Origin: a virus | Reading direction: 5' to 3' (one strand) | Virus record (IMG/VR): IMGVR_UViG_3300031963_000294 | Coordinates: 1-43,950 of that record | Length of the DNA stretch: 43,950 nt | Shown here: positions 12,901 through 37,631 of the stretch, piece after piece | Layout of the letters: every line of letters starts with the position of its first letter | How positions within the stretch are numbered: the first letter of the stretch is position 1 | Notes under the pieces: model-generated | What the model was told of the DNA's origin: nothing | The model's database searches: none | What the model saw: only the letters and a program-made list of their open reading frames with translations | Made by a program: the position numbers and the translations under genes

Positions 12901-15473
12901 TTAGAATTTCTATAATATCCTCTACCACATGGAGAACCACCTTCTATAAATTTATCTAATGATCCACCATACTTTCCATACTGAATATCATCTTTATTAG
13001 AATCCTTCTTAGCAATAAGATTAAATAACCTCATTAAGCTTTCATCATCTTTTGCTGTTCTAAATAATAAGTAAATATCTTGATTAAAGTTTTTATTATC
13101 TTTATCAAGCATTCCTTTTTTCTCAGCCTCCTCTCTCATCTGATTCAATCTCTCTGGAGTAATTACCTCATCAGGTTTAAGATTAAATTTCTTTCTAGCC
13201 ACATTAAGATATGATTGAATATTCTGTTCTTCTGGATTTATTATGTAATCATAAAATTGTTGTTTTTCTTTTGGCCAAGTTTTATCAAAAGGAATTATAT
13301 TTTCTTTTACAATTTTGTCATACATAGGATACAACTTGTCTCTCACAGGTTCCATAAGATAATTAGTTAACTCATGTCTTTCTGTATCAGACTTTTGTTC
13401 AGGTGTAAGTTCTGGACTAAAATATATTTTTGGAACTTTTCCACTTGTGTCATACATTCCAACTGCTCGGAAACCTCCTATATTTTCTTGCGTATATTCC
13501 TCTGGCATTGTTTCATATACTGGGAATGATTGCATTTGTTTAAGCATAGGTGATTCAGGATTGTATGCTGGTAATGCTTTTTCTACAACCTTTTTAAAAC
13601 TAGGTTGATCTTCTGGAAAATCTATTTTTCTATTCTTATACCATTCAACCATCCATCTTTGATCTTCTGTCATATTCTCTTCAGACAGAGGAATACAACC
13701 AAGTTTTGGATCATAAGTATAACCATCATCACATGGAGAACCACCTGCTATAAATTTATGTAATGACCCACCAAGTTCTTGCTTATATGGACTCATAAAT
13801 TGACCTGGATCATTTGGTCCTTTTTTTAAATATACATTATTAGCAGGATTTTTATTTACAATACCATCAGGTAACATGTTTTGATTAGAGAGTTCTAATA
13901 AAGCATTTGTCTTATCTCTTGAGCTCATAGGTAATATACCTACACCAGCACCAACAGCATTATTTAGTATATCTTCACCAGACTCTGTAAATTTAACCAA
14001 CCATGGTCTATCATCATTAAATATAGTTTCTAACTCATGACCTACACCCATTGCATTAGCACCTAAAAAACCAGCAGCTTGCGGTATACCTGTGTATTGT
14101 GCCCAGTCTGGAAAATAATCCATAATTGCTTCAGCTGCATATCTACCACCTTGAGGATGTCTAAAATTATCTATAGGATCATCATCTTCTTTTGCAGCAC
14201 CATAAGCAGACATAGCTGCTTTGTCCATAGGATTATCTAAAGCACTATTTATTTTATCCTCAAAGCTATTACCTCTATATAAAATTTCTTGAGTTGAACC
14301 AGGATCATATAGTTCTATTTCTTTTATTTCTCTTAGCAATCCTGCTGCTGTTTCTTGATCAGCAAGTAAAGGTGAATTTTTTAATTTCTCATATTGCTCA
14401 ACTAACTTTTGATAATAAGAACTAAATGTATCAGTTTTTTTGTTAGCTTTTTTAGCTGCAGCTTTAGCTTTTTTAGATGCTTTTATTGTAACTTCTTTAA
14501 GATTTTGTATATATGTAGGATTGTATGATCTTTTAGGAATAGTCTTGTCTAAATATTTTTTAAATTCTTCATCTGAATTATTTTCTAATATTCTTCTTTT
14601 TTCATCCTGTAATAAATACAATGGAGTATAATCAACTAATGCATTTTCACATCTTTTAGTATATGGATTCCATACTTGACCTTTCCCACATGGTTTATTT
14701 GAACCACCTCTATCATAATCAACTAAGCCACCATCTTCATAATATTTTGCATTAGGATCATAAATTCTATTCTTTACTTTCTTAGGTTTAAATAATTTAT
14801 TTTTTACAAACAGTTTATTCTTACCAAAAATACTTTTTGTGTACTTCATAGAATTTAAACTACCACCCTTACGGAACTGCTCTCCTACAGATCCTAATGC
14901 AGCTATTACTTCAGGCTTATCATCAAAATGCTTTTCTACTCCAAGTTGTTTTACTTTACGTACCTTAGCTTCATCTGAACCAGTAGCTATAATATTTTCA
15001 ACTGGAATGCCTGCTTGTCTAGCTCGGGCAATCATATCTGGTGTTACTTTATCTCTGGCAGATACAATAAAAAGATTATAGCCATCTCTAAACATTTTCT
15101 TAGCTTTAGCTAAACCTTCAGGTGTTGCAATAGTTTTATCAAAGTCAAAAGATGCATATTTACCTTTACCAAAATCTTCTGGCTGCTCCATCTCTGAATG
15201 CTCTCTATAATTAGCTGTAAGTTCTGAACCAGCGGGGATATTTTTTAAAGCTCTTAGGTATCTTTTATCTCCTATTACTTCATTACTAGTATTAAAGTTT
15301 TTTTCATCATGATTATAGAACTTACCAAACTGATTTGGTACAAATCTTATTCTATCATTATCTATAGGAATGCCAGAGTGTACGGGTAATATTAGTTCAC
15401 CCTTTTTAATTAGTTCTTGAGTAAATAAACCTTTACCATGTATCTTGGACTTTCCAACTTTTACTTTCTTCAT
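9942..15473 (-). CDS. Giant multi-enzyme cargo protein: SET, HAD, RH-HE-NN effector-like and PARP-like domains
   Basis: The protein has 1843 residues. It opens with a SET-like lysine methyltransferase domain (1-92): SKIHGKGLF near the start, NH at 54-55 and a closing AGSELTANY. A HAD phosphatase-like domain follows (about 105-195) with FDFDKT (nucleophile D109, D111), the motif II serine in VSAR, and HFDDKP. After a Lys/Ala-rich helix comes an all-helical region (about 415-515) with FRH at 437-439, HE at 479-480 and DILNNAVG at 501-508, a signature I associate with DUF6973-type polymorphic toxin domains. A third repeat module (about 905-1150) precedes a PARP/diphtheria-type ADP-ribosyltransferase-like domain (about 1225-1340) with YHGTS and GKGFTT. 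The C-terminus carries a variant of the NDYIELDIPE-type motif. Its ATG overlaps the TAA of the muzzle gene by one base. Domain calls are by motif; cargo role is inferred. Confidence 0.8.
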   Translation of the reverse strand: MKKVKVGKSKIHGKGLFTQELIKKGELILPVHSGIPIDNDRIRFVPNQFGKFYNHDEKNFNTSNEVIGDKRYLRALKNIPAGSELTANYREHSEMEQPEDFGKGKYASFDFDKTIATPEGLAKAKKMFRDGYNLFIVSARDKVTPDMIARARQAGIPVENIIATGSDEAKVRKVKQLGVEKHFDDKPEVIAALGSVGEQFRKGGSLNSMKYTKSIFGKNKLFVKNKLFKPKKVKNRIYDPNAKYYEDGGLVDYDRGGSNKPCGKGQVWNPYTKRCENALVDYTPLYLLQDEKRRILENNSDEEFKKYLDKTIPKRSYNPTYIQNLKEVTIKASKKAKAAAKKANKKTDTFSSYYQKLVEQYEKLKNSPLLADQETAAGLLREIKEIELYDPGSTQEILYRGNSFEDKINSALDNPMDKAAMSAYGAAKEDDDPIDNFRHPQGGRYAAEAIMDYFPDWAQYTGIPQAAGFLGANAMGVGHELETIFNDDRPWLVKFTESGEDILNNAVGAGVGILPMSSRDKTNALLELSNQNMLPDGIVNKNPANNVYLKKGPNDPGQFMSPYKQELGGSLHKFIAGGSPCDDGYTYDPKLGCIPLSEENMTEDQRWMVEWYKNRKIDFPEDQPSFKKVVEKALPAYNPESPMLKQMQSFPVYETMPEEYTQENIGGFRAVGMYDTSGKVPKIYFSPELTPEQKSDTERHELTNYLMEPVRDKLYPMYDKIVKENIIPFDKTWPKEKQQFYDYIINPEEQNIQSYLNVARKKFNLKPDEVITPERLNQMREEAEKKGMLDKDNKNFNQDIYLLFRTAKDDESLMRLFNLIAKKDSNKDDIQYGKYGGSLDKFIEGGSPCGRGYYRNSKGECVPLDWNLVDVDWDYHIGPQAEGWEYDRNSKEWIKNKSGINIQAKKGKKLSDWILRGGKTRLEQMKDFGKKYSSEFGIGANEPLISTNTTKEGIKRFKSYINNIVSEQNKYYKNEEKERKEYEKARKKAQSSKDLSAGTKFRMEYEEKGWDRFDPNVMNEAYKGQFQEAVDEANKRKEANMGVTNTALELLGGGAYRIVADPVGTAEGVAKTVADVATLPQGLVEGAVNYSNTGNFDMGTNVLTGENYGSGINQTFDVLGAIPGINAISKLSKFTKAGDLVTDLGKGVKSTFQNTGKINSSGASDITLQKHIDDIVANSSFKTEQEAADFLKEVAKSSNKTVNEVLNTYSNKGFGFSNSNLIAAAEVIKNDLKLPVPKYLYHGTSDARLKNILSSELDNSLGDAVNTGGMMPDKLGKGFTTAAGDSGYALNFAGYSAEATGGKPVLLRFANKGKKDLGFMGQYPAVKGKDIEYSLDGGKTWSKQLPGSPNSPVSNMVNKFFNRPPGPMMLLGPSGSGSNMVKKNLNYYKQLLDSYDSKKMSFANRKFYNDLIETGRKQGDMLTEAQLRELDRLKNSNFDFGKRGYNKESLLQVEPKAPIEGGTPPPVKSGYSINLKGAFQRYPKGPLTEEEILAYKNSPEYQKFSQEHADLINKYGSDWTLPNYMDEHLNEAITTGNRSRVNPILYGGRNWNATDYTIAGLVGSAYPGAAAVFGTAFSPPPIKNKILKNVGVTGVPGGLSSKDTLIDITNTPMDFAKVNETKDGKIIIGGEFIEDANNTVRKAKDWLTATDTYSDKKYPSNKIESFYGIEDGKFKVGKANEFDPDTEIVPRRFGAKNIDKAIMNGNEMRLLDKNGDPIYQNTPNTGKFILYSPSTKKAEFAYITSGKKGVDLVNDFLKKNKDAQYIHLDNGRYEYYGLNPGGLTKQDFESYYHQDLGREGTPGYNLIIKEEGGETDYQLGDEVDEDTKGYLESLGLGYTFEEI
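9945..10040 (-). repeat. NDYIELDIPE-type motif, diverged copy at a C-terminus
   Basis: The 1843-residue protein ends with EGGETDYQLGDEVDEDTKGY and a GLGYTFEEI end, which follows the same GG, DY, acidic block, helix, GY-x-hydrophobic-E-E order as the two internal linkers. A C-terminal copy suggests the motif marks the end of each unit. Confidence 0.5.
12024..12761 (-). repeat. Repeat module copy 3 (upstream of the PARP-like domain)
   Basis: About 245 residues (905-1150 of the 1843-residue protein), closest to copy 1 (SDWILRGGKTR, KEANMGVTNTALELLGGGA, FDMGTNVLTGENYGSG). It is in a different gene from copies 1 and 2, so the module has been duplicated both within and between genes. Confidence 0.75.
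12891..12941 (-). repeat. Gly-Gly/Cys-pair linker 3 of the 1843-residue protein
   Basis: Residues 845-861: GGSPC, 11 residues, then C, preceded by GGSLDKFIE. It lies just ahead of repeat module copy 3. Confidence 0.6.
13695..13745 (-). repeat. Gly-Gly/Cys-pair linker 2 of the 1843-residue protein
   Basis: Residues 577-593: GGSPC, 11 residues, then C, preceded by GGSLHKFIA. It follows the RH...HE...NN domain. Confidence 0.6.
14648..14708 (-). repeat. Gly-Gly/Cys-pair linker 1 of the 1843-residue protein
   Basis: Residues 256-275: GGSNKPC, 12 residues, then C, just after the HAD domain region and before the Lys/Ala helix. Confidence 0.55.
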
Positions 15474-18400
15474 TACCTTGGAGAATATTGATTTTTAGTA
15501 TTAAATATTTTCAAGATCATATTAGTATCTCTTGAATTTACTTTAGCTAACTTAATAAAATTTAAGTAATGTCTAAACTTTTTTCTCTGTAATTGATTTT
15601 TATTTATATCAATATTCTGATAGTTGATAGTTTTAATATAACCATTAGGTGCAGTTATCCATAAATTTTCTTGTCTATAAGAACCAGATAAAATTGTTGT
15701 CCCAGGTATTACAGGATTTGTAGGAGGATAGTCTGGTAACTGTTGAGGAGAAGGATAAGGAAATTCTCCACGGTCTTTTACTGAATCCCAGAATTGATTA
15801 AATCTATATTTGTTTTCTTCTTTAGAAAATAAAATATCAAATCCAGCTTTTGGTGTAATTGTAGGATCAATAAAAATTGAATTGTTAACTTTTGGATATT
15901 GTAAGTTTAGTGGTGGATTATTCTTAGCATAAATATTTAATTTCAAATATGGTGATATTTGTTCTGTATTATGAATTACAGCATAATCAAAATTATAATC
16001 TAGTACATGAAATTGATCTACACAGTTTTCTTGGTTTCTTTTATAACATTCTAAAACATATTCTACACTTTTTAAAGTAGTAACAGTTTGACCAGTTACT
16101 ATTGGAAACTCAACTTCAAATGGATACTGCGTCCCATAAAAATTACAATAGTCATTACATTCAATATTATGAGCCCAAAATTCATCAGCTCTTGTACTTA
16201 CAATTGTACTCTTAGTAGGTAAAGTAAGATCTGGATGCCAGTCATGAAATGAAATCCAAAATCTATTTTTAGGGTCATAACTTGCTGTCCATGAAGCATC
16301 TTCAAATATTGCAGGATCTCCTAAAATATAAATTTTATTTCCTTGTAAAGGATCCATAGTATCTAGAAAATAACTTTCAGTAGGTGTACTTATATATTGA
16401 ATTCTATTTGGATTTTGTGGTGTATTAAAACCATCTATCAATTTATAATCTTTTTTACAGAAATATAATACTGAATTTTCATTATCATAAATAGCTTGAC
16501 ATCCAATACCGGCTACAGGATTATCAGCATAATCATATTCTGGAAAATCTTCTAATAACTTAGATGGTAAAAATTCATCAAACCACCATTTCATTCCTGA
16601 TTGTGATATCTCTGTTATACCTTCATTATAAGTAAATATTTTACCTTGATTTTGTGATATATAATAAATACCAGCCGGTGTAGATATAACAGCCAATCTA
16701 CTTTGAGATGAACCATACTGATATGGTTTATCTGTAACAACTAGATTTTGAGCTTCTCTTGCAAATAACCCACCATCTCCTACAGTTACTTTAACACCTG
16801 AACCATCAAGTTGTAATTGATCAACTCCTTGAAATACTTGAGGGCCATCATTTTTAAATGTAATAAGAGCTCCGGTTCTAGCAAAGTTTTTAACTGAACT
16901 AATTTGACTAATAAAATCTTTACGGTTATTAGGTAGAAAAATAAACCATGCATCTTCTACAGAGCCTTGAACAAAAGGTAAAGAATAAGTAATAACATTA
17001 GGAAAATATGTATAACATAAACTTGCTACCTTAGGATCATAGTATCTATTTTGTAATGCACCAAATGTTAAAAATTTACTTGGTAATCTTGATGCACTTA
17101 AAGATAAATCATAAATATAAAAATTACCTCTTGTAATAATTATAGGATCCATTTTAAATAACTGTTGTAAATCAGTGTATCTATATGGATGATAACATTT
17201 TTCAAAATCAAATGTACCTACTTCTCTAAAGTCAAGAAGTATATCTGTTTCTACATAAAAGTCTCTTACTCCAGACACAGAAGTATAAAAGTATGAATTT
17301 CTAGGAATCCAAAATCCAGGATAAGGTGTAGCATCATCAGTAGAATGATCATAATTTATACTTTCTAGATTATAAAAATCTGTAGGAAATAGCCCAGTAC
17401 CCGGAGCAGCTGCTGTTGTTATTCCTAAAAAGTCAGATAAGTTTTCTACAGATATATTAGAAAAATCATAGTGTGTACTATTCATCCAGTATCTTGCTTG
17501 AGGAAGCATTTGATTTACAAAATAGTTATATTCAAAATCATCTGCTACTCCATACAACCAGTTATAAAACATCAACATTATATTCTTTTCTGTAAATCTA
17601 CATATGTATGTATCACCTCCAAAAAAGATATCTGTTTGAGCAATTAGTTTGTAGTAATAAGTTTGAGGAGTTGGTATAGGATCATTTAGTGTTGCTACAC
17701 TAGGTTGTATAAAATTACCTAAAAGTGCTGGACTATAGTCTTTTATCAAAGTACCAAAAGCATCTCTCTTTTGTTCACAAGGAGTAATTACTTGTTGCTT
17801 TATAGAATCTAACTGGCCGTATTGATTTTTTAAAGTTACTTTTATAGCACCATAGTGACTAGCTATTTTTGTTTGAAACCCAATTGTCTTTTTATCTTCC
17901 TCATCAATTTTAGGACCTAATCCTCCTACGTCTGCATGATACAGTGTAATTGAAGATTGATCCTGAGCATTACTAATTTGTTGAGCTAATGTAGTACCTG
18001 AAGTTAAAAAGCTTGGTCCTGTTGTAGCACCAGTATTTGCTTGAGCTGTTCTTAATACAACCAACTTGGGTCTAAAAATATTTTGTATTGTATATTTTTT
18101 AATTGTGCTTGTAGTAGTATCAATATAATCTGGAATTTCTTGATTGGTATCATTAATAACATATAGTGAATCTTCTACTTTAAATCTATATAGTTCACCT
18201 GGTTTTCTAGGATCAAATCTATCATAGTAACCATGACCAATTTGTTGTAATGCATATTGCTTTAATGGAGCAATAGCATATAAAAATTCATTAGCTGTTT
18301 TTAATCCTTGTGCAAAGAAAAAAGCAAAATTTTGTAGACCACCTAAAAATGCTAACCAAGGTGGTAACATCTGAGATTGAGAAAGTTCATTTGTATAAGT

Positions 18401-20875
18401 TATACCATTGTATGTTGCACCTGCAGTTTTATATGCAGCATTATGCGCTCTAAATATATTATCTAATGTATCTATACCTGATATACCATTACCAATAAAA
18501 CCTAAACCATTATAATAAGCAAGTAATGCTGCATTAAATGTATTATTAGCTCCTGTAGTTGCTAAAGGTGTTAGTGGTTGTAAATTTTGAGATAAAGGTG
18601 AAGAGGTTCCTGACACAAATGGAAGTTGTCTAATTTGTGTATAACTACCTTGAGGATAGTTAATTTGTTTTTTACCACCATTAGCTAATATACTGTAACC
18701 AAGAGCATACATCAACATTGCCCAAAAAGATGCATCACTAAGTAATTTATTTTTAGGATGTCCTGCTGGTTCAATAAATTGTTGTTGAGCCAATCCTGAA
18801 ACATGACCATATATTTTTAATTCACTTATTGCTAAGTAAGGATTTCTAAAACTTGTTTCTGGTGAATGAAATGATATAATCTCTTTTGGAATATCTTGAT
18901 TTTGATAAACTAAGTTTGTATCTACTTTCTTTATATAGGGATCATTATATTTAAAATTACGTCCTCCACTTGGACTATTCCCATAAGGATAAATAGAATT
19001 AAATGGAAAGTTTGCATACAAACCAGTTCTTGTGTTTGCAGCAACTCCTTGAATAACATAATCTCTAAAGTTATTAATCATTCCTTTAGCAATTATAGTT
19101 CTATTACCTTCTCTTGAGCCTACAAGAATTTCATAACCTACAATATTTGTAATTATGTTACCTTCATTATCAACAGGAGTTTGGATATTTTTAAATCTTA
19201 CTCCCATCAATCTTATTTTCATAGCATCTGTTAAAGGATCTCTTTTAAAATGATATGTTCTATCTGATAAATTATTGTCAGGAAACTTATGATGTCTTAT
19301 AGGTAGGCCACATAAATCATAATCAATACTTGGTGTCTGATATTTATTTGTCCATGGATGATAACTTGCATTCCAAATATCAGGTCTGTTATCAGGATAC
19401 TTTTCAGTTTCTGCTTGCCAATAACCCATATCACCATAAGCAATTACTTTTCCACCATCAGGTAATAGTTGTGTAGCTGCACTTAATTGTGAAGCTGTAT
19501 TTATTGTTTCAAATAAAAAAGTATCTCCTGGTAAAGTATTATCATCTGAATATGCTACTAAATCTGGACCTTTAGGGGGTCTTCCTGGAATATGATATGA
19601 AGCTGATTTATCTCCTGTATCATATACCCATCTGATAAAAAATGCATAAACTTCATCTCTTAAATAACTTGTTTTACTACCTCCTTTAAAATAATAATCT
19701 GAAGGATATTCAACAGAGACCCACTCAGCTCTAATTAAGTTAGCAAGAGGTTGATAATTAAAATCAAATTTAGAAGTCGGACCTATTCTAAGTAAATAAT
19801 TATTTAACTGAACTATTTGATCAGATTTTTCAAATACTGGTGTTTGTCTTACAATATCAAAATCATCTACATCAACTGCACTTACTTTTATTTGATCAAT
19901 ATATATTGATGTTGTTCTTGTAGAATATAATCCAATTTGTTTAGCTATAATACCTTCATTTACAAAAGCTATTACAATTAGAACAAACTCATCAAAGTTT
20001 TCAGAATCTGCTGTTAGGTTTAATTGTAAAGAACCCTGACCATTATCAGGAGTATACACTGCTTGAACATTACTTGGAGCAAAATAGTCTGTTACTTTTT
20101 GTCCTTTTATAGTATATGCAATAGCTGCATAATAAGAACCATTACTTAATGAACCAGAACTATCTCCTCTAAATAATTCTAAACAAGGAGTTTCCATTAG
20201 TCTTGCAAGTCTAATATTATCACAGTCTAAAAAAGGTGTATCAAAACAAAACTCACAAGCTCCTGTAGTACAATCTTGTATCCAAGTTACTCCTGGCCAT
20301 TGAGTACTTTGAGAAGGATCTGCTGTAAAAAAATATTTATTAGGATTTGCTGCTCCTCCCCATGTATAACCTTTTATAGGCCATGTTTCAGGATCTCCTA
20401 CATTTAAGAATCTATCTGGATTTTTTCCATCTGCCCAGTATACTTGCCAAGTACAATCTTCTTTTTCTCTTGAAGCTCCTGAAATTAAATTAAATCTACT
20501 AAAGTTTAAACATGCATCTACAACAATTGGAAAGTATTGACAAGAACTTTCTATAAATAAACCTATCTCAGAATTTGATGATCTCTTAGTTTTTTTTGTT
20601 TGATGAGCTGCAGTAAATACAATCCAATAATCAGAATATAAATTTATAAGACCTATTATGTATTTATAACCAACCATTGTTTGACCGGCTTTAGTACATA
20701 AGGTATTTGATCTTTCATTAGATAATGTACCTAAGTCACCTTCTGCCGTATTGTTTACAACATTACGGGCATGTGTCCACATACCTTCTTGTACAAATGA
20801 AGGATCAGAATCTTTATTAAGACCCTTGACAAAGGTGTTTGTTTGATTTTGTGCTTGATCTTGACTTTTTGCCAT
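15473..20875 (-). CDS. Tail 'muzzle' / stabilisation-type protein
   Basis: This 1800-residue protein has no obvious enzyme motif. It is rich in Tyr, Asn, Phe and short beta segments throughout. Its N-terminus (FVKGLNKDSDP at 15-25, GTLSNERSN at 49-57) matches the style of the crAss-like and P22 gp10-like tail stabilisation proteins, which begin with a 'KGLNxD' segment followed by a beta-propeller-rich body. In crAss-like virions the protein of this size and place forms the distal barrel of the short tail. It follows two ring/adaptor genes directly (1 base gap) and is followed by the giant cargo genes, the same order as in crAss-like genomes. The start is followed by a disordered Gln/Asn segment. 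I am fairly sure it is a tail structural protein, less sure of the exact homology. Confidence 0.7.
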   Translation of the reverse strand: MAKSQDQAQNQTNTFVKGLNKDSDPSFVQEGMWTHARNVVNNTAEGDLGTLSNERSNTLCTKAGQTMVGYKYIIGLINLYSDYWIVFTAAHQTKKTKRSSNSEIGLFIESSCQYFPIVVDACLNFSRFNLISGASREKEDCTWQVYWADGKNPDRFLNVGDPETWPIKGYTWGGAANPNKYFFTADPSQSTQWPGVTWIQDCTTGACEFCFDTPFLDCDNIRLARLMETPCLELFRGDSSGSLSNGSYYAAIAYTIKGQKVTDYFAPSNVQAVYTPDNGQGSLQLNLTADSENFDEFVLIVIAFVNEGIIAKQIGLYSTRTTSIYIDQIKVSAVDVDDFDIVRQTPVFEKSDQIVQLNNYLLRIGPTSKFDFNYQPLANLIRAEWVSVEYPSDYYFKGGSKTSYLRDEVYAFFIRWVYDTGDKSASYHIPGRPPKGPDLVAYSDDNTLPGDTFLFETINTASQLSAATQLLPDGGKVIAYGDMGYWQAETEKYPDNRPDIWNASYHPWTNKYQTPSIDYDLCGLPIRHHKFPDNNLSDRTYHFKRDPLTDAMKIRLMGVRFKNIQTPVDNEGNIITNIVGYEILVGSREGNRTIIAKGMINNFRDYVIQGVAANTRTGLYANFPFNSIYPYGNSPSGGRNFKYNDPYIKKVDTNLVYQNQDIPKEIISFHSPETSFRNPYLAISELKIYGHVSGLAQQQFIEPAGHPKNKLLSDASFWAMLMYALGYSILANGGKKQINYPQGSYTQIRQLPFVSGTSSPLSQNLQPLTPLATTGANNTFNAALLAYYNGLGFIGNGISGIDTLDNIFRAHNAAYKTAGATYNGITYTNELSQSQMLPPWLAFLGGLQNFAFFFAQGLKTANEFLYAIAPLKQYALQQIGHGYYDRFDPRKPGELYRFKVEDSLYVINDTNQEIPDYIDTTTSTIKKYTIQNIFRPKLVVLRTAQANTGATTGPSFLTSGTTLAQQISNAQDQSSITLYHADVGGLGPKIDEEDKKTIGFQTKIASHYGAIKVTLKNQYGQLDSIKQQVITPCEQKRDAFGTLIKDYSPALLGNFIQPSVATLNDPIPTPQTYYYKLIAQTDIFFGGDTYICRFTEKNIMLMFYNWLYGVADDFEYNYFVNQMLPQARYWMNSTHYDFSNISVENLSDFLGITTAAAPGTGLFPTDFYNLESINYDHSTDDATPYPGFWIPRNSYFYTSVSGVRDFYVETDILLDFREVGTFDFEKCYHPYRYTDLQQLFKMDPIIITRGNFYIYDLSLSASRLPSKFLTFGALQNRYYDPKVASLCYTYFPNVITYSLPFVQGSVEDAWFIFLPNNRKDFISQISSVKNFARTGALITFKNDGPQVFQGVDQLQLDGSGVKVTVGDGGLFAREAQNLVVTDKPYQYGSSQSRLAVISTPAGIYYISQNQGKIFTYNEGITEISQSGMKWWFDEFLPSKLLEDFPEYDYADNPVAGIGCQAIYDNENSVLYFCKKDYKLIDGFNTPQNPNRIQYISTPTESYFLDTMDPLQGNKIYILGDPAIFEDASWTASYDPKNRFWISFHDWHPDLTLPTKSTIVSTRADEFWAHNIECNDYCNFYGTQYPFEVEFPIVTGQTVTTLKSVEYVLECYKRNQENCVDQFHVLDYNFDYAVIHNTEQISPYLKLNIYAKNNPPLNLQYPKVNNSIFIDPTITPKAGFDILFSKEENKYRFNQFWDSVKDRGEFPYPSPQQLPDYPPTNPVIPGTTILSGSYRQENLWITAPNGYIKTINYQNIDINKNQLQRKKFRHYLNFIKLAKVNSRDTNMILKIFNTKNQYSPR

Positions 20876-31148: not shown

Positions 31149-31667
31149 TTATTTTAAAAAAAGTAACTTGTACTTAGTTGAATTAATTGAATCCTTAACT
31201 AAATCTAAGTTATTTACTATTTCTGAATAAGGCAACATACCTTGTAGTTTATTAATTGAATTATACAGATCTCTTAAATATCCTACACCATCTGCTACAG
31301 TATCTAATGTTCTAATTGGCATATCAGTATACTTTATAAGTTTTTCTGCTACACCTTGATAACCTTCTACAAGAGTATCAGCATGGCCATGTAATCCTTC
31401 ATAAAAACCACCTAATGCATTATGAGCTGCATAAGATCCATCACCAGTAATTTTTAAATGTAATTTATGAAAACTAATAGCAGCATTCATCATTTCTGTT
31501 GCACAGGCAGCTACCATATTATCTAATGAACTACCTCCTACACCTGTATCAGGAGTTGGTTGTGGTTTAGCAGGTTCTTCTTTAGGTTGAGTAACAACTG
31601 GCTGAGGTCTGCTAATTGTTCTAGCAGGTTCAGGATTTCTTTTTAAAAGTCTTGCTTTTTGTTCCAT
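31149..31667 (-). CDS. Dps/ferritin-like protein with Pro-rich N-terminal tail
   Basis: 172 residues. The first 45 are Pro/Lys-rich and disordered (PQPVVTQPKEEPAKPQPTP). The rest is helical and carries the pattern H67-x2-H70-x11-H82-x7-E90, then H93, H95, D97 and E101, which aligns with the Dps ferroxidase motif (H, H/D, D-x3-E within 'Hw..G..f..lH....y......D..aE'). I associate this with DUF5856-type phage proteins, which are described as ferritin-like. A fully functional iron site needs residues from a dimer mate; this is not shown by sequence. It lies 2 bases downstream of the connector-like gene. It could protect or bind DNA, or merely use the fold as a structural piece. Confidence 0.6.
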   Translation of the reverse strand: MEQKARLLKRNPEPARTISRPQPVVTQPKEEPAKPQPTPDTGVGGSSLDNMVAACATEMMNAAISFHKLHLKITGDGSYAAHNALGGFYEGLHGHADTLVEGYQGVAEKLIKYTDMPIRTLDTVADGVGYLRDLYNSINKLQGMLPYSEIVNNLDLVKDSINSTKYKLLFLK

Positions 31668-31669
31668 GG

Positions 31670-32368
31670 TTAATTGTTTCTTTCAGCACCTTGTGTACCT
31701 CTAGAGAATTGATTTGTTGATTCAATATCTCCAGCTAAAATACTAGCGGCCTCATCTATTATTAATTCTATTATATCATCTTTAAACTCACATTCTACAT
31801 TAGCCGTAGAAGCTACATTAGTATATGGATCTACACAGTTTAAAACTTGAATTTTTATAGGCTGTCTATAGTAAATAAGATCAGCTGTTTGTATAGTAAA
31901 TTCTTTATTTGTATAGATATTAACATTACCACCTTTTAGAGTAGCAAATGTTTCTCCCCACTCAAAGTTTGGTTGTTTTGATTTATCTCTAAGAAGTTCC
32001 CGGAGATTCCCTTCTTCTGCAAGATATACCATCATAGGTCTTTTCTTGCAGCAGTCTTTATTTGCAAAAACATCTACTCTTTTCCATTGCAAGTAATCTT
32101 CAGGTAATAATCCAGAATAATAGTAATCTTTATCAGATATAGTTATAGGAAATGTTTCTAGTAAAATTTGCAAGTCATCTTTTCTTCTAGTAGATTGCTC
32201 ATCACCTTCTTTAACCACATTAATTCCATGTAGCTGTCTTCTTACCCATTCTACTTGAGCTTTATTAAAAGCCTCAACTACTTGCCAGCATTCTATATTG
32301 TCATAGTCTTGACTGTCAAGCTTATTGAGTCTTTGTTTAATCTTTATGGTAAGTGTACTATTAAGCAT
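31670..32368 (-). CDS. Neck/connector-type structural protein
   Basis: 232 residues. Helical N-terminus (LNKLDSQDYDNIECWQVVEAF), a beta-rich middle (FPITISDKDYYYSGLLPEDY, IYYRQPIKIQVLN) and a helical end with DDIIELIIDEAASILAGDIE before a short polar tail. A 'D-x-I-I-E-L-I-I-D-E-A-A-x-x-L-A-G-D' helix close to the C-terminus is a feature I know from phage connector or ring-like proteins of this size. It starts 3 bases after the basic protein cluster and ends 2 bases before the Dps-like gene. I infer a head-tail connector or head completion role with moderate support. Confidence 0.5.
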   Translation of the reverse strand: MLNSTLTIKIKQRLNKLDSQDYDNIECWQVVEAFNKAQVEWVRRQLHGINVVKEGDEQSTRRKDDLQILLETFPITISDKDYYYSGLLPEDYLQWKRVDVFANKDCCKKRPMMVYLAEEGNLRELLRDKSKQPNFEWGETFATLKGGNVNIYTNKEFTIQTADLIYYRQPIKIQVLNCVDPYTNVASTANVECEFKDDIIELIIDEAASILAGDIESTNQFSRGTQGAERNN

Positions 32369-32371
32369 GAT

Positions 32372-32662
32372 TTATTTTTTTCTTCTTACAGATCCACCTT
32401 TTTTCTTAATAGGTGCATATGGTGCAACTGTTCCAGTAGTCCATTGCTTACCAGCTGCAACATTAGAATAACCTTTTGTTTTACTTTGGTTATCAAGATC
32501 ATAAGCTTCTTGAGCTTTTTGTTCTTTAGGACCAAAGTCTCCAGTTGCACTATAAGGATCAGCTTCATTTCCAGGTCCTCCCATAAATTTCTTAACCAAT
32601 TTTGTTCTAGCTTCATTAGCTTCTCTAAAGAAAGTTAATGGATGTTTATTTGTCTTTTTCAT
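32372..32662 (-). CDS. Small basic protein with C-terminal KKKGGSV motif
   Basis: 96 residues from the ATG at 32660-32662, which lies 1 base after the TAA of the upstream gene; an upstream start at 32701 would overlap that gene and was not chosen. The N-terminus (TFFREANEARTKLVKKFMGG) is an amphipathic basic helix, the middle is polar, and the end is KKKGGSVRRKK. It is the last of eight small basic genes. The Lys-Gly-Gly-[Ser/Thr] motif is also in other proteins of the cluster and in the giant cargo proteins. Function unknown; DNA condensation or a head-internal role is a guess. Confidence 0.6.
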   Translation of the reverse strand: MKKTNKHPLTFFREANEARTKLVKKFMGGPGNEADPYSATGDFGPKEQKAQEAYDLDNQSKTKGYSNVAAGKQWTTGTVAPYAPIKKKGGSVRRKK

Positions 32663-32663
32663 G

Positions 32664-33068
32664 TTATCTGTTTTTAGCCATTTTTTTAAAAGTTCTAGCA
32701 AGAGCCTTTCTCTTAGGTGTACATGTAGGTTTAGACATAGGAGTGCAGTAACCTTTATGTTTAGGATTAACTGCTTTTTGTATCCATTTTTTATCTACGG
32801 TTCCACCTTTTTTCTTCATAGTTAACTCATTACTTGGTTGTACTGGTGTCAACAATTCTTCAAGTTTATCAGGACTCATCTGTGGTCTTGATAATGGATT
32901 CTTTTTTGGGACCCCTTTAAGTACACCTCTAATAGTTCTAGTTTCTTTAGATTTTTCTGAGCCATCATCATAACCCGTATATTTTCTTTTGTAATTACGG
33001 TCAGGAGAAATAAATACTTGCTTGTATATTTTTTTCTTTTTAGGTTTATCAGAATCTTTTAAACTCAT
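32664..33068 (-). CDS. Small basic protein with WIQ-TPM-CTP C-terminal domain
   Basis: 134 residues, strongly basic. The first 60 are Lys-rich and disordered. A KKKGGTV motif precedes a compact end: KWIQKAVNPKHKGYCTPMSK followed by PTCTPKRKALARTF, a pattern I recall from small proteins of uncultured phages and some large viruses. The two cysteines could bind metal or DNA. It begins 2 bases after the preceding stop, in the context TAGTTATG. Unknown function; being in a row of very basic small genes between capsid and neck genes suggests a head-internal or DNA-associated role. Confidence 0.6.
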   Translation of the reverse strand: MSLKDSDKPKKKKIYKQVFISPDRNYKRKYTGYDDGSEKSKETRTIRGVLKGVPKKNPLSRPQMSPDKLEELLTPVQPSNELTMKKKGGTVDKKWIQKAVNPKHKGYCTPMSKPTCTPKRKALARTFKKMAKNR

Positions 33069-33070
33069 AA

Positions 33071-33430
33071 CTATTTTTTCTTTCTTTTATTTTTTAATGC
33101 ACCTGCTATAATATCAGCACGAGTAATTTTATTTTTAGGTGGAGCTAATGCAGCTAGTTTAGCATTTTTTACAGAACCACCTTTCTTATAGGCACCTCCA
33201 TTTTTTGCTGTAAGTATTCTACTATTATTATAACCAGATTTTGGAGCTGTAGGAGAATCTATACCTTTACTAGCATCACCAGTATCTCCACCTGTAAAAT
33301 ATTTTTTAACACCACCTTTTCTCATAGTTGTTGGTCTAGTACTAGCATTATAGATAGGAGAAACAATTGTTCCGTTAGGTTGTCCTCCATTTTTCATTTT
33401 GGGGCCACCACATTTCATACATTTTTTCAT
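33071..33430 (-). CDS. Small basic protein rich in Lys-Gly-Gly motifs
   Basis: 119 residues with five Gly-Gly sites after basic or Asn residues (KNGGQ, MRKGGV, FTGGD, KNGGA, KKGGS), one of which, MRKGG, is also present in the leftmost giant protein and in the 107-residue basic protein. The N-terminus has CMKCGG, a lone Cys pair. The body is disordered and the C-terminus basic (KNKITRADIIAGALKNKRKKK, a predicted helix). It reads like a string of linkers or cleavage sites rather than a folded enzyme. The start context ATAGTCATG matches other genes of the cluster. I suspect a precursor or head-internal protein. Confidence 0.6.
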   Translation of the reverse strand: MKKCMKCGGPKMKNGGQPNGTIVSPIYNASTRPTTMRKGGVKKYFTGGDTGDASKGIDSPTAPKSGYNNSRILTAKNGGAYKKGGSVKNAKLAALAPPKNKITRADIIAGALKNKRKKK

Positions 33431-33442
33431 GACTATATTAAT

Positions 33443-33724
33443 TTAACAGTTCCACTTTCTTAAAGACTTATTGATCCTTGAGTTAGGATCATTAGCTGTC
33501 TTAGAGCTTGTTAGTTTTTTCTTCATTCCTGACATTCTAGCACAGAAAGACTTTCTTCTTTTAGCAGATTTACTATCTGGATCAAGTTTAGAAGGTTTGG
33601 TAGTTACAGCTGTCTTAAGTTTACTACCAGGGTTTTCTCTTCTATAAGATGCAACACCTTTAGCATTAAGACCTCCTTCAGGATTCTTACCTTCTTTTCT
33701 TTGCCATGCTGGAGACTTTGCCAT
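33443..33724 (-). CDS. DUF6321-type small basic protein
   Basis: 93 residues from the ATG at 33722-33724. An earlier GTG at 33748 is possible but the family usually begins close to SPAWQRKEGKNPEGGLNAKG. That motif, followed by SYRRENPGS and a Ser-Phe-Cys-Ala-Arg-Met-Ser-Gly block (SFCARMSGMKKK) with LRKWNC at the end, matches the family I know as DUF6321, found in many uncultured phages and some algal viruses. Function unknown; the Cys residues and basic charge hint at nucleic-acid binding. The gene overlaps the end of its upstream neighbour by 38 bases in another frame. Confidence 0.7.
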   Translation of the reverse strand: MAKSPAWQRKEGKNPEGGLNAKGVASYRRENPGSKLKTAVTTKPSKLDPDSKSAKRRKSFCARMSGMKKKLTSSKTANDPNSRINKSLRKWNC

Positions 33725-34007
33725 TTTTCTTATCTTTTTTGTGTGCACTATTTTTCATAATCTTACCATCAGGCATCATATGATAACCTCTAGGTATCAT
33801 AGGATTTTCTTTATGCCATTTTTTAGTAGCTGCAATTCCTTGCTTAATGGTTTTTGCTCCTGCCTTTTGTGTTAAGTTAATTGTATCCCACTTACCTTTA
33901 TCTTTTGTAGGATGATTAACCATTATATCACCAGGTTTACCTTCACCAATTTTATTAGTTTTTTTGTAAATCTTGTGTTTTTCACCACCAGCAGTAAGTC
34001 TTGCCAT
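33687..34007 (-). CDS. Small basic protein of unknown function
   Basis: 106 residues, basic, with no cysteine. Visible blocks are LTAGGEKHKIYKKTNK at the start, IMVNHPTKDKGKWDTINLT and KAGAKTIKQGIAATKKWHKE in the middle, and a lysine-rich end. It contains a further Gly-Gly (TAGGE). The start is in the TAGTCATG context, 2 bases after the upstream stop. The last 38 bases overlap the next gene. The middle segment looks conserved rather than disordered, so it probably has a small folded core. I do not recognise the family. Confidence 0.6.
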   Translation of the reverse strand: MARLTAGGEKHKIYKKTNKIGEGKPGDIMVNHPTKDKGKWDTINLTQKAGAKTIKQGIAATKKWHKENPMIPRGYHMMPDGKIMKNSAHKKDKKNGKVSSMAKKRR

Positions 34008-34009
34008 GA

Positions 34010-34234
34010 CTATTTACTAAAATTTTTAAGAACTTTCATTTGCTCTTCAGCAAGTTTTGAAATATCTCTCATCATATTTTTATCCTTACGGATATCCTCT
34101 GCTCTTTTTAGACAACTTAATGCAGATTCAACTTCCCATTTTCTCATTTCTGCTTTAGGAGTTGCAGAGATAGTCATACCTACAGAAGCTTTCTTTGCAG
34201 GTGCTTTTTTAGTTGTTGTTTTTTTAATTGCCAT
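34010..34234 (-). CDS. Small protein with histone H1-like basic tail
   Basis: 74 residues: a basic tail of Lys, Ala, Pro and Thr (MAIKKTTTKKAPAKKA), much like the H1-type tails of bacterial and viral nucleoid proteins, followed by one or two helices (VESALSCLKRAEDIRKDKNM and RDISKLAEEQMKVLKNF). It may bind DNA by the tail and oligomerise through the helices. It starts in the TAGTTATG context, 2 bases after the upstream stop, within the basic gene cluster. Packaging or condensing DNA within the capsid is a plausible inference, not shown by sequence. Confidence 0.6.
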   Translation of the reverse strand: MAIKKTTTKKAPAKKASVGMTISATPKAEMRKWEVESALSCLKRAEDIRKDKNMMRDISKLAEEQMKVLKNFSK

Positions 34235-34236
34235 AA

Positions 34237-34575
34237 CTATACTTTTTTAACCCTTCTTCCCATACCTACTCTAGACTTCTCAGCTTTCTTAGCAGCTAGT
34301 TTAGAAGGACTTAGTTCATATTTGGTTTTAGGAGTATCCTTTGATACTCTTTTTGTAGGCCGGCAGTACTCATTAGAACCACCGGCACCACAAGGTTTTC
34401 CTGATTTAGTATCTTGCCATTTCTCTGCTTGCCATCTTTTAAGCTCTGCTCCTTTCTCAGTCTTTCTAACAGTGCCTTTACCTTTACGGCATTTGGCAAT
34501 AGCTTGAGAAGCCCTTGCTGAAGGAAACACAGCATATCTTGCTTTTACACTATGATAACAAGAATCCTTTGGCAT
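34237..34575 (-). CDS. DUF5872-type small basic protein
   Basis: 112 residues with DSCYHSVKARYAVFPSARAS then IAKCRKGKG, an EKWQD block and a PCGAGG segment followed by CRP. This ordered pattern of CYxxVKxRYxVxPSAxAS, KCRK and W-x-D...PCG matches the small phage and giant-virus family I know as DUF5872, which is often next to DUF6321 genes, as here. Four cysteines could bind zinc. A basic C-terminal tail follows. It starts 2 bases after the upstream stop. Molecular function is unknown. Confidence 0.7.
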   Translation of the reverse strand: MPKDSCYHSVKARYAVFPSARASQAIAKCRKGKGTVRKTEKGAELKRWQAEKWQDTKSGKPCGAGGSNEYCRPTKRVSKDTPKTKYELSPSKLAAKKAEKSRVGMGRRVKKV

Positions 34576-34577
34576 GA

Positions 34578-34901
34578 TTAACAGCTTTTTTTAGAGCCAC
34601 CTTTTCTCATCATTCCAGGTTTCATTGCCATACCATACATAGCTTTAGGCTTAGCTTTTGAAGCTCTTGTTTGCTTACCTTTGGTTGCAGTAACATTAAC
34701 TTCAGGTAAATTTCTAACATATGGTTCTTCAGTATCAGTAATGCCACCAGCATAATATTTACCTTTTACAGCCATTCCTAATTTTGCTTTTGGTAGTGCA
34801 GTTTTAGGAGCTTTAGAAGTACCACCAACTTTTCCACCTGGAGTTTTGTCAGCTCCTGTAAGTTTTTTAGACTTTGTTTTAGTTACGCATGCCTTTTTCA
34901 T
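34578..34901 (-). CDS. Small basic protein with MRKGG C-terminus
   Basis: 107 residues, basic, mostly disordered (Lys/Thr/Gly/Pro). A short predicted strand block (EPYVRNLPEVNVTATKGK) lies in the middle, and the end reads PGMMRKGGSKKSC, sharing MRKGG with the 119-residue basic protein and with the leftmost giant protein. It also has a YYAGG site before it. It is the first gene of the basic cluster, 11 bases after the capsid-associated gene. No family recognised. It could be a head-internal or precursor-type protein. Confidence 0.6.
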   Translation of the reverse strand: MKKACVTKTKSKKLTGADKTPGGKVGGTSKAPKTALPKAKLGMAVKGKYYAGGITDTEEPYVRNLPEVNVTATKGKQTRASKAKPKAMYGMAMKPGMMRKGGSKKSC

Positions 34902-34912
34902 TTTATTTTAAT

Positions 34913-35935
34913 TTAAGTGTTCCAATACTTTTCACAAGACTGATTAAGATCTTTTAAAATGTCTTCATGTAATGGGTTTTTTAAATGCTCAATTACATCA
35001 GAAACATTTCTACCAAGTAAACTATTTGTCTTAGCATGGTATATATATCCATCTGCCTTATGTATAATATACTTAAAAAAACTGGAATCACGAACAATTG
35101 ATTTAATTTTTAGTGTTTCCATGTCTAAATTAACTGCATCAATAAATGTTTTTGCTGCTCTTTCTTTGTTATTTTCAGCACCTTCTCCAGAAATATATTT
35201 ATCCATATTTTCATAGATAACATCTAATGGAGTTGATTTTCTATACTGAGAACTTACAGCATCCACAACTTTAGCAATGTAGAATAATTTAGTACTATTT
35301 TTATCATATAATTTTTGTAACTCTGAGTAAGCTTTGTTACGGAGTTTTTTGTACTCTGTTCTTACCATTACAGTTTCTTCCTCTTTATCTAGATAGAATT
35401 TAGGTGGTACTGCTTTTGATCTTGCATCATCATAACTTTTTGCAATCATTGCAAATCCTCCTGCTTCAATTGCATGAAGTTTAATTCTATCAAAAGGTTT
35501 ATTTGGATCAAGATATACTGGTTCATTACCACATGACATTTCTATCTTATTCCAAAATTCTTTATTATCAGGTTTAAGAAGTTTTACTTGATTCCAGAAA
35601 TCTTTATCTGTAGGATCAATAACATTTGCAGCCAATTCTCTTTCTAATTCAGCTACTGAACTTCTTATCTCTTTAATTCTTGCTTCTTTAACTTCAGGGT
35701 CTAATAGTTTAATTTCAGGAGCAAATTCATTTAATCCTGTAACATATCTTATTACACCATTATTTTCTAAACAAGCAAGTTGCTCATTATGAGTTACTCC
35801 GTCAAATAAACTCATTCCATAATCCTCTAACCCCATGTTAGTGGCTTGTTTGTCAAAGTAAGGTCTAACAGCAATATTTGTTTTTTTAATGCTGCCTACT
35901 CCTACTTCAACCATTGTAAAATCTGTTGTTTCCAT
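34913..35935 (-). CDS. Capsid-associated structural protein downstream of the major capsid gene
   Basis: 340 residues with an alpha-rich middle and no enzyme motif. It has a highly charged helix (VKEARIKEIRSSVAELEREL) and a helical segment KAYSELQKLYDKNSTKLFYI, then a shorter C-terminal domain. A gene of this kind directly after the capsid gene is usual in crAss-like phages. The leader has two copies of ACCAACAAAA before the ATG, and the capsid gene's terminator is 33 bases upstream of it, so expression may be lower than that of the capsid protein. I infer an auxiliary head or capsid protein. Confidence 0.55.
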   Translation of the reverse strand: METTDFTMVEVGVGSIKKTNIAVRPYFDKQATNMGLEDYGMSLFDGVTHNEQLACLENNGVIRYVTGLNEFAPEIKLLDPEVKEARIKEIRSSVAELERELAANVIDPTDKDFWNQVKLLKPDNKEFWNKIEMSCGNEPVYLDPNKPFDRIKLHAIEAGGFAMIAKSYDDARSKAVPPKFYLDKEEETVMVRTEYKKLRNKAYSELQKLYDKNSTKLFYIAKVVDAVSSQYRKSTPLDVIYENMDKYISGEGAENNKERAAKTFIDAVNLDMETLKIKSIVRDSSFFKYIIHKADGYIYHAKTNSLLGRNVSDVIEHLKNPLHEDILKDLNQSCEKYWNT

Positions 35936-36014: not shown

Positions 36015-37631
36015 TTAGAATGATCCGCCAGTTACTGGGTTTCTCATAACAATCTTCAATACCTTAGTTGGATCTTTTACCCAAATTGCAGGCATAGTTT
36101 GAGACATCATTACTCGGTATCCATTGAACTGTCCAGAAGACTGGAATCCTTGGGTACGACCCATGTAGTCCATAGTACCATTTTGATACCACCACTTCAA
36201 TTGATTATCCCAAGACAATTTCAATAAGTAGATATTGTCATTAGTGTTATCAGTGATATCAAAGATAATGAATGAGTAAGAAGATAATGGGAAACCATCA
36301 ATGATTGGGTTCTCAATATCATTTGTATGAATGTTGTCAAATGCAGGGTTCAATACAAACTTAACATTTGCCAAGAATGGAATTACATATGAAGTATAAG
36401 CAAATCCAAAGTTCAAGTCCATACCTTTACCAGTGATTGCACCAATATCAGCAGCCTGAATCAATAGACCAGAAGCAACTGCTTCTCTTTTGATAGCTTC
36501 ATTTACCATTCTCATTCCACCCATACCTGTTTGTACAACTAGTGAACGCTTAGGATCTGGACCTTGGAACTCAACTTTACCATTGAAGAAGTTATAGATT
36601 TCTCCACGGAATAAATCAAGAGTAAAGTTATTTTTGTTGTATACTCTTTTGAATGAGTTATCCAACTGTCTCCAAAGACCTACTGATAATCTAATATCAT
36701 CTGGACCATCTTGACGTACTCTACCTCCTTGTCCCCACATTAAGTAAGTCTCAATGTCAGTTGCAATTTTAGAAAGGTGAGCTGCTTCCATTTGAGTTAA
36801 GAAAGTTCTAGAAAGATCTCCATTATCAAATGCTTTTTTCACTTTGTCTTTACCCATAACTTTGATCATATCTTCTAATGAAGAGATAGAAGGATCATTG
36901 TTAGCACTAAAGTTTCTCCAGATCTCAGTTACAGGAACTGTACCATCTGCATTCATTCCACCTTTAATCATCAAGTCAGCACGAGATGAGATAGAATAAT
37001 GTACATGAGCTTCAGCACCACCAACAAAGTTATAGAACTCACGGAATGAAGTTCTTGTAGTGATGTCAGAGAATCTTTCACCATATTCACCTCTAGCAGA
37101 ACCTTTTCTGAATAGTTTAGTACCATTCTCTAAGAATCTGTTATCAAGGAATCTGAAGTTGTCATTGTTTACCAACTGAACTGTATAAACAAATCCATCT
37201 CCTAAAGGTAAGATATCTTCATCAGTAATGTACATCTCAACACCATTGTATTTGTCATAAGTGATGATATCACCATGTCCAAATTCTCTTCTGTTGATTT
37301 TAATACGGAAAGTATTACCATCTGTACCTTTAAAGGTATTGTTTGGTTCAATGTCTTCAATAATGTATGGAAGGTCTGTAGATACAGGAGTCTGCCATCT
37401 GTACTCTCCACGAGCATTATCAACATTGATTACATTTTTACCTCCAAATGATGACATTTGATAAAGAGGCATTTCAACTTTTTGAGCCATAGCCCAAAGG
37501 TCTACTGGACCTAAATCCATAGGTTCAGCATCTTTTAACATATTCACTAAGTGATAAGAGTCTACATGCGATGAAGCTTGGTAGGCTGTGTCTCTTAGGA
37601 ATATCCCATTGTTTAAAACTGGAGTTGCCAT
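36015..37631 (-). CDS. Major capsid protein (HK97-fold type inferred)
   Basis: 538 residues. Short N-terminal arm, then mixed alpha/beta core, no signal or enzyme motif. The gene sits after the portal and scaffold-like genes, is visibly less AT-rich than its neighbours, has an A/C-rich leader (AACAAACAAAAACAAATAAAAA) without Shine-Dalgarno, and is followed by a strong GC-rich terminator, all typical of the major capsid gene. Segments such as GARGEYGERF and a Gly-rich MGGMRMVNEA fit the core of HK97-fold capsids, but this fold is not proven by sequence. I assign it as the major capsid protein from length, place and expression signals; the nearest relatives I recall are capsid proteins of crAss-like phages. 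Confidence 0.75.
   Translation of the reverse strand: MATPVLNNGIFLRDTAYQASSHVDSYHLVNMLKDAEPMDLGPVDLWAMAQKVEMPLYQMSSFGGKNVINVDNARGEYRWQTPVSTDLPYIIEDIEPNNTFKGTDGNTFRIKINRREFGHGDIITYDKYNGVEMYITDEDILPLGDGFVYTVQLVNNDNFRFLDNRFLENGTKLFRKGSARGEYGERFSDITTRTSFREFYNFVGGAEAHVHYSISSRADLMIKGGMNADGTVPVTEIWRNFSANNDPSISSLEDMIKVMGKDKVKKAFDNGDLSRTFLTQMEAAHLSKIATDIETYLMWGQGGRVRQDGPDDIRLSVGLWRQLDNSFKRVYNKNNFTLDLFRGEIYNFFNGKVEFQGPDPKRSLVVQTGMGGMRMVNEAIKREAVASGLLIQAADIGAITGKGMDLNFGFAYTSYVIPFLANVKFVLNPAFDNIHTNDIENPIIDGFPLSSYSFIIFDITDNTNDNIYLLKLSWDNQLKWWYQNGTMDYMGRTQGFQSSGQFNGYRVMMSQTMPAIWVKDPTKVLKIVMRNPVTGGSF

Follow-up and report, generated by a model that had tools for sequence, protein, structure and literature searches.

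Among the systems described so far, the locus discussed here is best compared with the internal proteins of phage T4 and the cargo proteins of crassviruses. T4 has three internal proteins (IPI, IPII and IPIII), which are small and basic and present in about 300 copies each; according to the available parts of the source, they are dispensable in standard hosts, and IPI inhibits genome restriction (PMC9026906). The crAss001 cargo protein gp45 was detected in virions by mass spectrometry and partly by cryo-electron microscopy, again according to the available parts of the report (PMC10172136). Here, we consider eight successive small genes on the minus strand at positions 32372-34901 of IMGVR_UViG_3300031963_000294, a virus record with a Crassvirales-like structural block; "the window" refers to the whole stretch analyzed (43,950 bases). 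Comparison with relatives reveals a mosaic cassette: in an aquatic Crassvirales-like clade, small basic modules come and go at one fixed junction of the late operon, and the eight genes represent one of its states. We lean towards a reading in which the products of this cassette, fusions included, would be basic cargo carried inside the virion in contact with DNA, in a role like that of the T4 internal proteins.

The eight genes (b1 to b8 in Table 1) are open reading frames (ORFs) of 74-134 amino acids (aa), all with an isoelectric point (pI) of 10.0-11.0 and a net charge of +10 to +25, as a first, sequence-only reading had described. They are tightly spaced, with gaps of 1, 2, 12, 2, 2 and 2 bases and one overlap (33443-33748 with 33687-34007), which measures 62 bases from the GTG start and 38 bases from the in-frame ATG. 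In our own list of 28 genes called in the window, the eight rank highest in charge per residue and are contiguous (chance of such contiguity, 21/C(28,8) = 6.8e-6), and most same-strand neighbors of the run are acidic or neutral. The DUF5872 and DUF6321 domains recognized at that time both score above curated Pfam cut-offs: b2 matches PF19197 with 50.7 bits (cut-off 27.5; profile 14-111 of 116) and b5 matches PF19846 with 77.7 bits (cut-off 28.5; profile 1-72 of 72). The other six genes have no Pfam match at E ≤ 1, and an NCBIfam scan of the eight gave nothing above a cut-off. Homologs favor an ATG start both for b8, giving 96 aa rather than the 109-aa TTG form at 32372-32662, and for b5 (33443-33724, 93 aa). 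The run had been placed between capsid and neck genes, which holds insofar as it extends from the capsid side to the first tail-ring-like gene; however, a 340-aa gene, g340, separates it from the capsid gene.

Among 80 loci fetched with the capsid protein, 45 reach both flanks of the run, g340 and the right-flank gene, and the flanks were always kept (Table 1). By contrast with the flanks, genes similar to b1 to b8 are present in 21, 28, 23, 16, 39, 22, 33 and 8 of the 45 loci, respectively, counted by tblastn at E ≤ 1e-3, a cut-off that leads to undercounting of weakly conserved genes such as b8. Removal of 34 of 106 both-flank loci (33 duplicates and the empty locus L162) left 72 distinct intervals, the window included, which span 0.9 to 5.0 kb and hold 2 to 11 ORFs each, 540 in total. 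These ORFs, like those counted below in the 131 ordered loci and in the pelagiphage-query loci, come from a simple same-strand caller, which calls b8 of the window as a 76-aa frame and produces visibly spurious ORFs in some pelagi-type loci. A pI above 9 was found for 532 of the 540 (98.5%) and a pI below 7 for 0.6%. Of 398 small ORFs taken from other parts of the relatives' late module, 121 exceed pI 9; high pI is no general trait of small genes in these phages. At 60% coverage the 540 ORFs form 171 clusters, 125 of which are singletons, and 243 ORFs have no detectable similarity to the eight of the window.

The site was further compared in 131 distinct loci in which capsid gene, g340 and right flank follow one another in this order. 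It is filled (600 bp or more from g340 to the right flank) in all 73 loci with a capsid identity of at least 84%, and 543 of their 552 insert ORFs have a pI above 9. In the 58 loci below 84%, the interval is 100 bp or less in 44, 600 bp or more in 7 and intermediate in 7; in Leptolyngbya phage Lbo-JY46, the two flank homologs have a one-base overlap. The inserts of this distant group are likewise basic (45 of 49 ORFs), and the ten filled or partly filled sites examined in it contain window families b3 to b7, among others. Since the inserts are basic in close and distant loci alike, the site is a hotspot that accepts almost only basic genes. The 73 high-identity loci do not form a clean clade in the capsid tree, which implies six present/absent changes when small inserts are counted as present, with an ambiguous root state; the presence of the cassette has changed repeatedly, and we claim no direction. 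In one genome (G006), DUF6321 is placed far from the cassette site. Conserved co-occurrence in related phages, which the sequence-only reading had named as a check, is borne out in part: the run recurs at a fixed site, but its membership turns over and the site is empty in most distant relatives.

A further shared trait is a short glycine motif. The 497 unique cassette proteins contain the pattern [MY][KRQ]xGG 315 times, versus 10.9 ± 3.6 times after shuffling, and the 12,069 residues of 20 other window proteins contain it twice; because the cassette proteins are related, the excess does not amount to a probability. When widened to [MFY], the motif is present in all 72 cassettes and in 104 of the 171 clusters (75 of these singletons). 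In b6 it occurs as MKCGG (33404-33418), MKNGG (33383-33397), MRKGG (33311-33325) and YKKGG (33176-33190). We counted as fused any module that stands alone in one genome and is preceded by other sequence in a second, as applies to the KWIQ...CTP module of b7, which is stand-alone in other genomes. GG lies at most 14 residues before the fused module, at a near-constant distance, in 47 of 51 cases (DUF6321, 21/22; KWIQ, 17/17; b6, 7/7; b4, 1/1; HPGF, 1/1; b3, 0/3), versus a frequency of 0.14 to 0.40, across the five groups that have cases, for stretches placed at random in these proteins; the module patterns were chosen after the cases were known, and the three b3 cases are ordinary b3 proteins with a long tail. 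Fused modules in the clade are mostly joined by a [M/F/Y]-K-x-G-G-[S/T] junction. This motif may serve as a flexible linker, mark proteins for packing or docking, or be a site of processing (cleavage). A fixed DNA site behind the motif is unlikely, as the second glycine codon is at background in 357 instances; a mild DNA bias does exist in these instances, with GGT as the first glycine codon at 0.76 versus a background of 0.60 and lysines richer in AAA.

A link to the virion comes from a second location of DUF5872. In 16 cassette-bearing genomes, DUF6321 occurs once in each, and DUF5872 forms a small frame in 15, with one genome lacking it. Among 12 records of the distant group (nine with an empty site, two with a cassette, and L346, which lies outside the site classification), DUF6321 is confined to the two with a cassette. 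DUF5872, however, is found in four of the nine empty-site records, each time inside a long ORF (970 to 1510 aa) that directly follows the muzzle gene; one of these ORFs starts with a SET-like domain, like the post-muzzle protein of the window. By gene order, the four ORFs stand at the position of the cargo protein gp45 of crAss001, whose gp44 we take to be the muzzle. The placement of DUF5872 inside a presumably packed giant protein of relatives suggests that the cassette set travels with DNA. The four proteins contain 12-19 relaxed GG motifs versus 3.4-4.8 in shuffles (0/500 each), compared with 3 to 7 versus 2.9 to 4.0 in four muzzle proteins, of which that of the window has the most (reached in 24/500 shuffles); the capsid and portal proteins of the window are at background. 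In the cassette-bearing relative G005, two large ORFs at the contig start (880 and 1023 aa; next to the muzzle provided that the genome is circular) have three strict motifs each (0/300 shuffles) and a 743-aa ORF has one (33/300 shuffles); no motif was seen in its ORFs of 1030, 2400, 4071 and 1164 aa, its muzzle or its portal.

The model we consider most likely is that these small basic proteins are made late and packed inside the virion with the DNA, where they would associate with the DNA and with larger cargo proteins; they would leave the particle with the DNA, perhaps ejected together with the larger cargo. The modules occur as separate genes, as fusions with each other or, in the case of DUF5872, as part of the post-muzzle giant protein. 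DUF5872 and DUF6321, whose function was previously unassigned, thereby gain a proposed role as modules of virion-internal cargo. Because the set turns over and is absent in many relatives, a host-facing role would fit better than a fixed condensation machine, although the two roles are compatible. Should ejection occur, the changing membership of the set would be the trace of an arms race in which abundant aquatic phages are engaged with their hosts, as with IPI in T4.

Several observations weigh against this model. Five of the nine empty-site records are without any DUF5872, and the post-muzzle ORF of the window is at most mildly enriched in the motif (strict, 1 versus 0.29; relaxed, 11 versus 5.3). 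The motif is absent in 345 of the 540 cassette ORFs, including b2-b5 of the window. In further loci, counted on the + strand and including, of the four post-muzzle proteins, that of L415 alone, GG stands at the junction in 7 of 10 crass cases and is absent in all 16 pelagi-type and in 3 of 4 named-phage cases. The literature searched contains no virion proteomics of any phage with a cassette. Some records label proteins of the T4-GC119 type, cyanophage proteins with these domains, as "structural" or "virion", but such labels are weakened because T4-GC119 is called hypothetical in the accessible parts of Sullivan (2010).

The likeness to IPI, IPII and IPIII (PMC9026906, PMC7697877; both available in part) lies in the possession of several small basic proteins, and the absence of the cassette in many relatives suggests that it is as dispensable as the T4 set. 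On the other hand, the eight have no Pfam or PHROGs sequence match to T4 internal proteins: at E ≤ 1 no such family was among their matches, most of the PHROGs being unnamed. The cassette sets are also larger and more variable and have GG junctions. The likeness to the crassvirus cargo protein C1 (crAss001 gp45; available parts of PMC10172136 and PMC10136315) is positional and concerns the DUF5872-bearing ORFs of the four relatives, whereas in the window the modules are separate small genes at another site. The cassette is mosaic, built of basic modules that resemble internal proteins and marked by a junction motif that recurs. No description of it was found in the accessible portions of the literature searched, including PMC10172136, PMC3037559, PMC9026906, PMC7697877, PMC10136315, PMC12386605, PMC7029224 and PMC12085832; in the literature searched, DUF6321 is named in no paper and DUF5872 in one, within a gene list of an algal virus.

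The sequence-only reading had favored condensation of DNA in the head by a phage counterpart of viral core proteins. As the main job of the cassette this is rather unlikely. The uniform basicity of the eight proteins would allow charge to be neutralized so that the genome and bulky cargo fit: one copy of each adds up to +151 in the window, and the corresponding sum over 72 cassettes has a median of +158 (range +65 to +286). A Dps-like gene lies nearby, and T4 internal proteins bind DNA at low salt, according to the available sections of PMC9026906. Nevertheless, 44 of 58 relatives of the same capsid architecture have an empty site. A conserved core-histone set in particular fits poorly, because many relatives lack it, its membership turns over (the DUF5872 gene is present in 28 of 45 loci and the last gene in 8) and no histone family is matched; cargo resembling the T4 internal proteins would fit better. 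What survives of the earlier interpretation is a link to virion cargo, in that the run recurs among head and tail genes, DUF5872 recurs in the post-muzzle protein of four relatives and the GG motif is common to these four proteins and the cassette. Membership of the eight in histone families was rejected, as none is matched at E ≤ 1 in Pfam, and the histone H1-like tail reported for the gene at 34010-34234 proved to be a short TTTKKAPAKKA stretch.

The modules are not restricted to crassviruses. Of 50,697 phage records, 538 contain DUF6321, most of them from cyanophages and pelagiphages, and 175 contain parts of DUF5872; in pelagiphage, T7-like cyanophage and T4-like cyanophage records, the modules lie near portal, scaffold, capsid or terminase genes. 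Pelagibacter phage HTVC027P has a run of small basic genes between portal and capsid, and Prochlorococcus phage P-SCSP2 has one between scaffold and capsid. Both runs resemble the cassette in that small basic genes are lined up between head genes and include DUF6321 and the two halves of DUF5872, and KKGG motifs also occur in HTVC027P; they differ in belonging to unrelated phage types, in their place in the genome and in the division of DUF5872 into separate N- and C-half genes, which were assigned partly by reading. In cyanomyoviruses, DUF6321 is part of basic fusion proteins, two of which were scanned (529 and 994 aa). These T4-GC119 proteins (S-SSM7, S-SM1, S-P4 and AG-345-E15-type) share with the cassette their basic character and the DUF6321 and DUF5872-like stretches, with a DUF6321 identity to that of the window of commonly 60-70%; however, the modules are there fused in one protein of 495-994 aa, the linkers are without GG in 3 of 3, and virion status is uncertain. 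The DUF6321 of the marine single-cell phage contig AG-345-E15 (L163, 12001-12276) is 87% identical to that of the window in protein and 77% in DNA, which, in a phage of another type, points to exchange between unrelated phages. A module pool is common to unrelated marine phages.

A pelagiphage DUF6321 query yielded 80 further loci. Of 69 basic gene runs around this DUF6321 that are clear of edges, 61 have at least two members (run lengths are rough), and the motif is present in 13.7% of ORFs within such runs versus 1.5% outside. Among the matches listed for 120 larger proteins beside the runs, 14 are to portal, 9 to GroES, 16 to a ferredoxin-labeled family, and 8 or 9 to each of five terminase families (overlapping). 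This adjacency to terminase, portal and GroES genes would also suit non-virion proteins that serve late in the cell as assembly or packaging factors or that act on the host nucleoid, and the hypothetical status given to T4-GC119 points in the same direction. Small basic proteins often bind nucleic acid inside the cell. We regard an intracellular role as unlikely, however, given the DUF5872 within the post-muzzle protein of four relatives and the common GG motif.

It is also tempting to speculate about proteolysis. Core proteins of adenovirus and African swine fever virus are cut at GG-type sites, and the cassette proteins are comparable in being basic, with GG-containing sites between parts. 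In aquatic crass-like phages, the modules of virion cargo could then be interchangeable, exist as small genes or polyprotein parts, and be cut apart by a phage protease at [M/F/Y]-K-x-G-G during maturation, a counterpart of GG-site core processing in some eukaryotic DNA viruses. We consider this distinctly doubtful. The register of the motif differs, and no prohead protease was among the matches listed for the 70 distinct ORFs scanned of the 92 called in G005. Peptidase-like matches in G005 were a putative phage metallopeptidase (PF18894), a DUF2201 metallopeptidase-like protein and peptidase M15; this near-full-length genome (L423, L418-L422) also has an arginyl-tRNA-protein transferase-like gene (ATE_C) and the GIY-YIG endonuclease family. 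In two T4-like cyanophage loci (L167 and L174), acidic linkers ending in ...ETQNE, with no GG, precede DUF6321. T4-type head proteases cut after Glu, and the protease site used at a given module boundary might differ from one phage type to another.

Measured against the window, the median ratio of nonsynonymous to synonymous substitution rates (dN/dS) stays below 1 in each of the eight families: 0.138 in b4, 0.145 in b2, 0.215 in b5, 0.323 in b3, 0.377 in b7, 0.437 in b1 (5 pairs), 0.526 in b6 (15 pairs) and 0.705 in b8 (6 pairs), compared with 0.085 for the capsid, 0.144 for the right flank and 0.171 for g340. Pairs under half coverage were left out, as were two b4 and two right-flank pairs with unusable dS. 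A tolerant insertion spot, whose ORFs have little function and owe their basic charge to A-rich DNA, could be read from the 125 singletons among 171 clusters, the high ratios of b8 and b6 and the predominance of AAA among lysine codons (0.77), but it is highly improbable, and largely refuted for b2, b4 and b5, in view of the ratios below 1, the length of 112 aa in 55 of 55 members of the b2 cluster, the acidic or neutral character of most same-strand neighbors and the basic inserts of the distant group. The DUF5872 gene (34237-34575) has a median dS of 0.476, below the 0.76 to 1.19 of its neighbors, which could reflect more recent spread or codon constraint.

Table 1. Cassette genes and neighboring late genes in the window.
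Feature	Position	Strand	Database match or conservation
b1, 107 aa, pI 10.3, net charge +21; one MRKGG motif (34596-34610)	34578..34901	-	
b2, 112 aa, DUF5872	34237..34575	-	Pfam PF19197
b3, 74 aa, short AKKA-type basic tail; rest helical as predicted by eye	34010..34234	-	
b4, 106 aa, basic	33687..34007	-	
b5, DUF6321, 93 aa from ATG (GTG form 33443-33748, 101 aa)	33443..33724	-	PF19846
b6, 119 aa, several GG motifs	33071..33430	-	
b7, 134 aa, C-terminal KWIQ...CTP module behind KKKGG junction	32664..33068	-	
b8, 96 aa (ATG start), C-terminal end KKKGGSVRRKK	32372..32662	-	
Crassvirus major capsid protein	36015..37631	-	PF23898, 101.6 bits (cut-off 27)
g340, 340 aa, conserved left flank of cassette site	34913..35935	-	Kept in 45/45 loci; hidden Markov model match in Lbo-JY46
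Right flank, virion structural protein	31670..32368	-	phrog_29507; kept in 45/45 loci
Dps-like gene, two genes from cassette	31149..31667	-	phrog_858, DUF5856; found in 43/45 loci
Muzzle protein	15473..20875	-	PF25731 crAss_MUZ, 95.1 bits (cut-off 27)
Post-muzzle giant ORF, 1843 aa	9942..15473	-	Positional counterpart of DUF5872-bearing proteins in four relatives

DUF6321 is predicted to be a folded domain; its AlphaFold2 model has a predicted local distance difference test score (pLDDT) of 86.0 and a predicted template modeling score (pTM) of 0.63. Foldseek gave no PDB match for it at E ≤ 0.001, and a second structural comparison aligned four chains with a best Z of 2.9 (few chains). A viral structure library gave 25 matches at E ≤ 0.001, mostly to named DUF6321 proteins. 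The DUF5872 model is poor (pLDDT 62.9), and no solved relative of either domain was found by sequence at E ≤ 1.

The Crassvirales-like membership of the window is indicated by its capsid (PF23898), muzzle and ring (PF25731, PF24228) and terminase/portal (phrog_6547, phrog_6681) matches, and comparison with crAss001 (gp34) places the right-flank gene where crassviruses have their first tail-ring gene. The N terminus of the post-muzzle protein of the window is a SET domain of the lysine methyltransferase type (Pfam, 28 bits; cut-off 22.4), followed by a stretch that appears HAD-like by eye. Of 17 records searched, 7 have SET matches, mostly within frames of 900 to 1850 aa, and G006 has a SET-like gene of its own, encoding 126 aa (L263, 1143-1523), close to its relocated DUF6321 gene. 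The SET domain of the window might conceivably modify the lysine-rich cassette proteins. The tail region includes a 715-aa acidic protein with 53 cysteines (26691-28838, minus strand). The only other mid-sized basic gene of the window, encoding 193 aa with a pI of 9.8 (22558-23139, minus strand), lies near ring 1 and is possibly the IHF-like gene of crassviruses.

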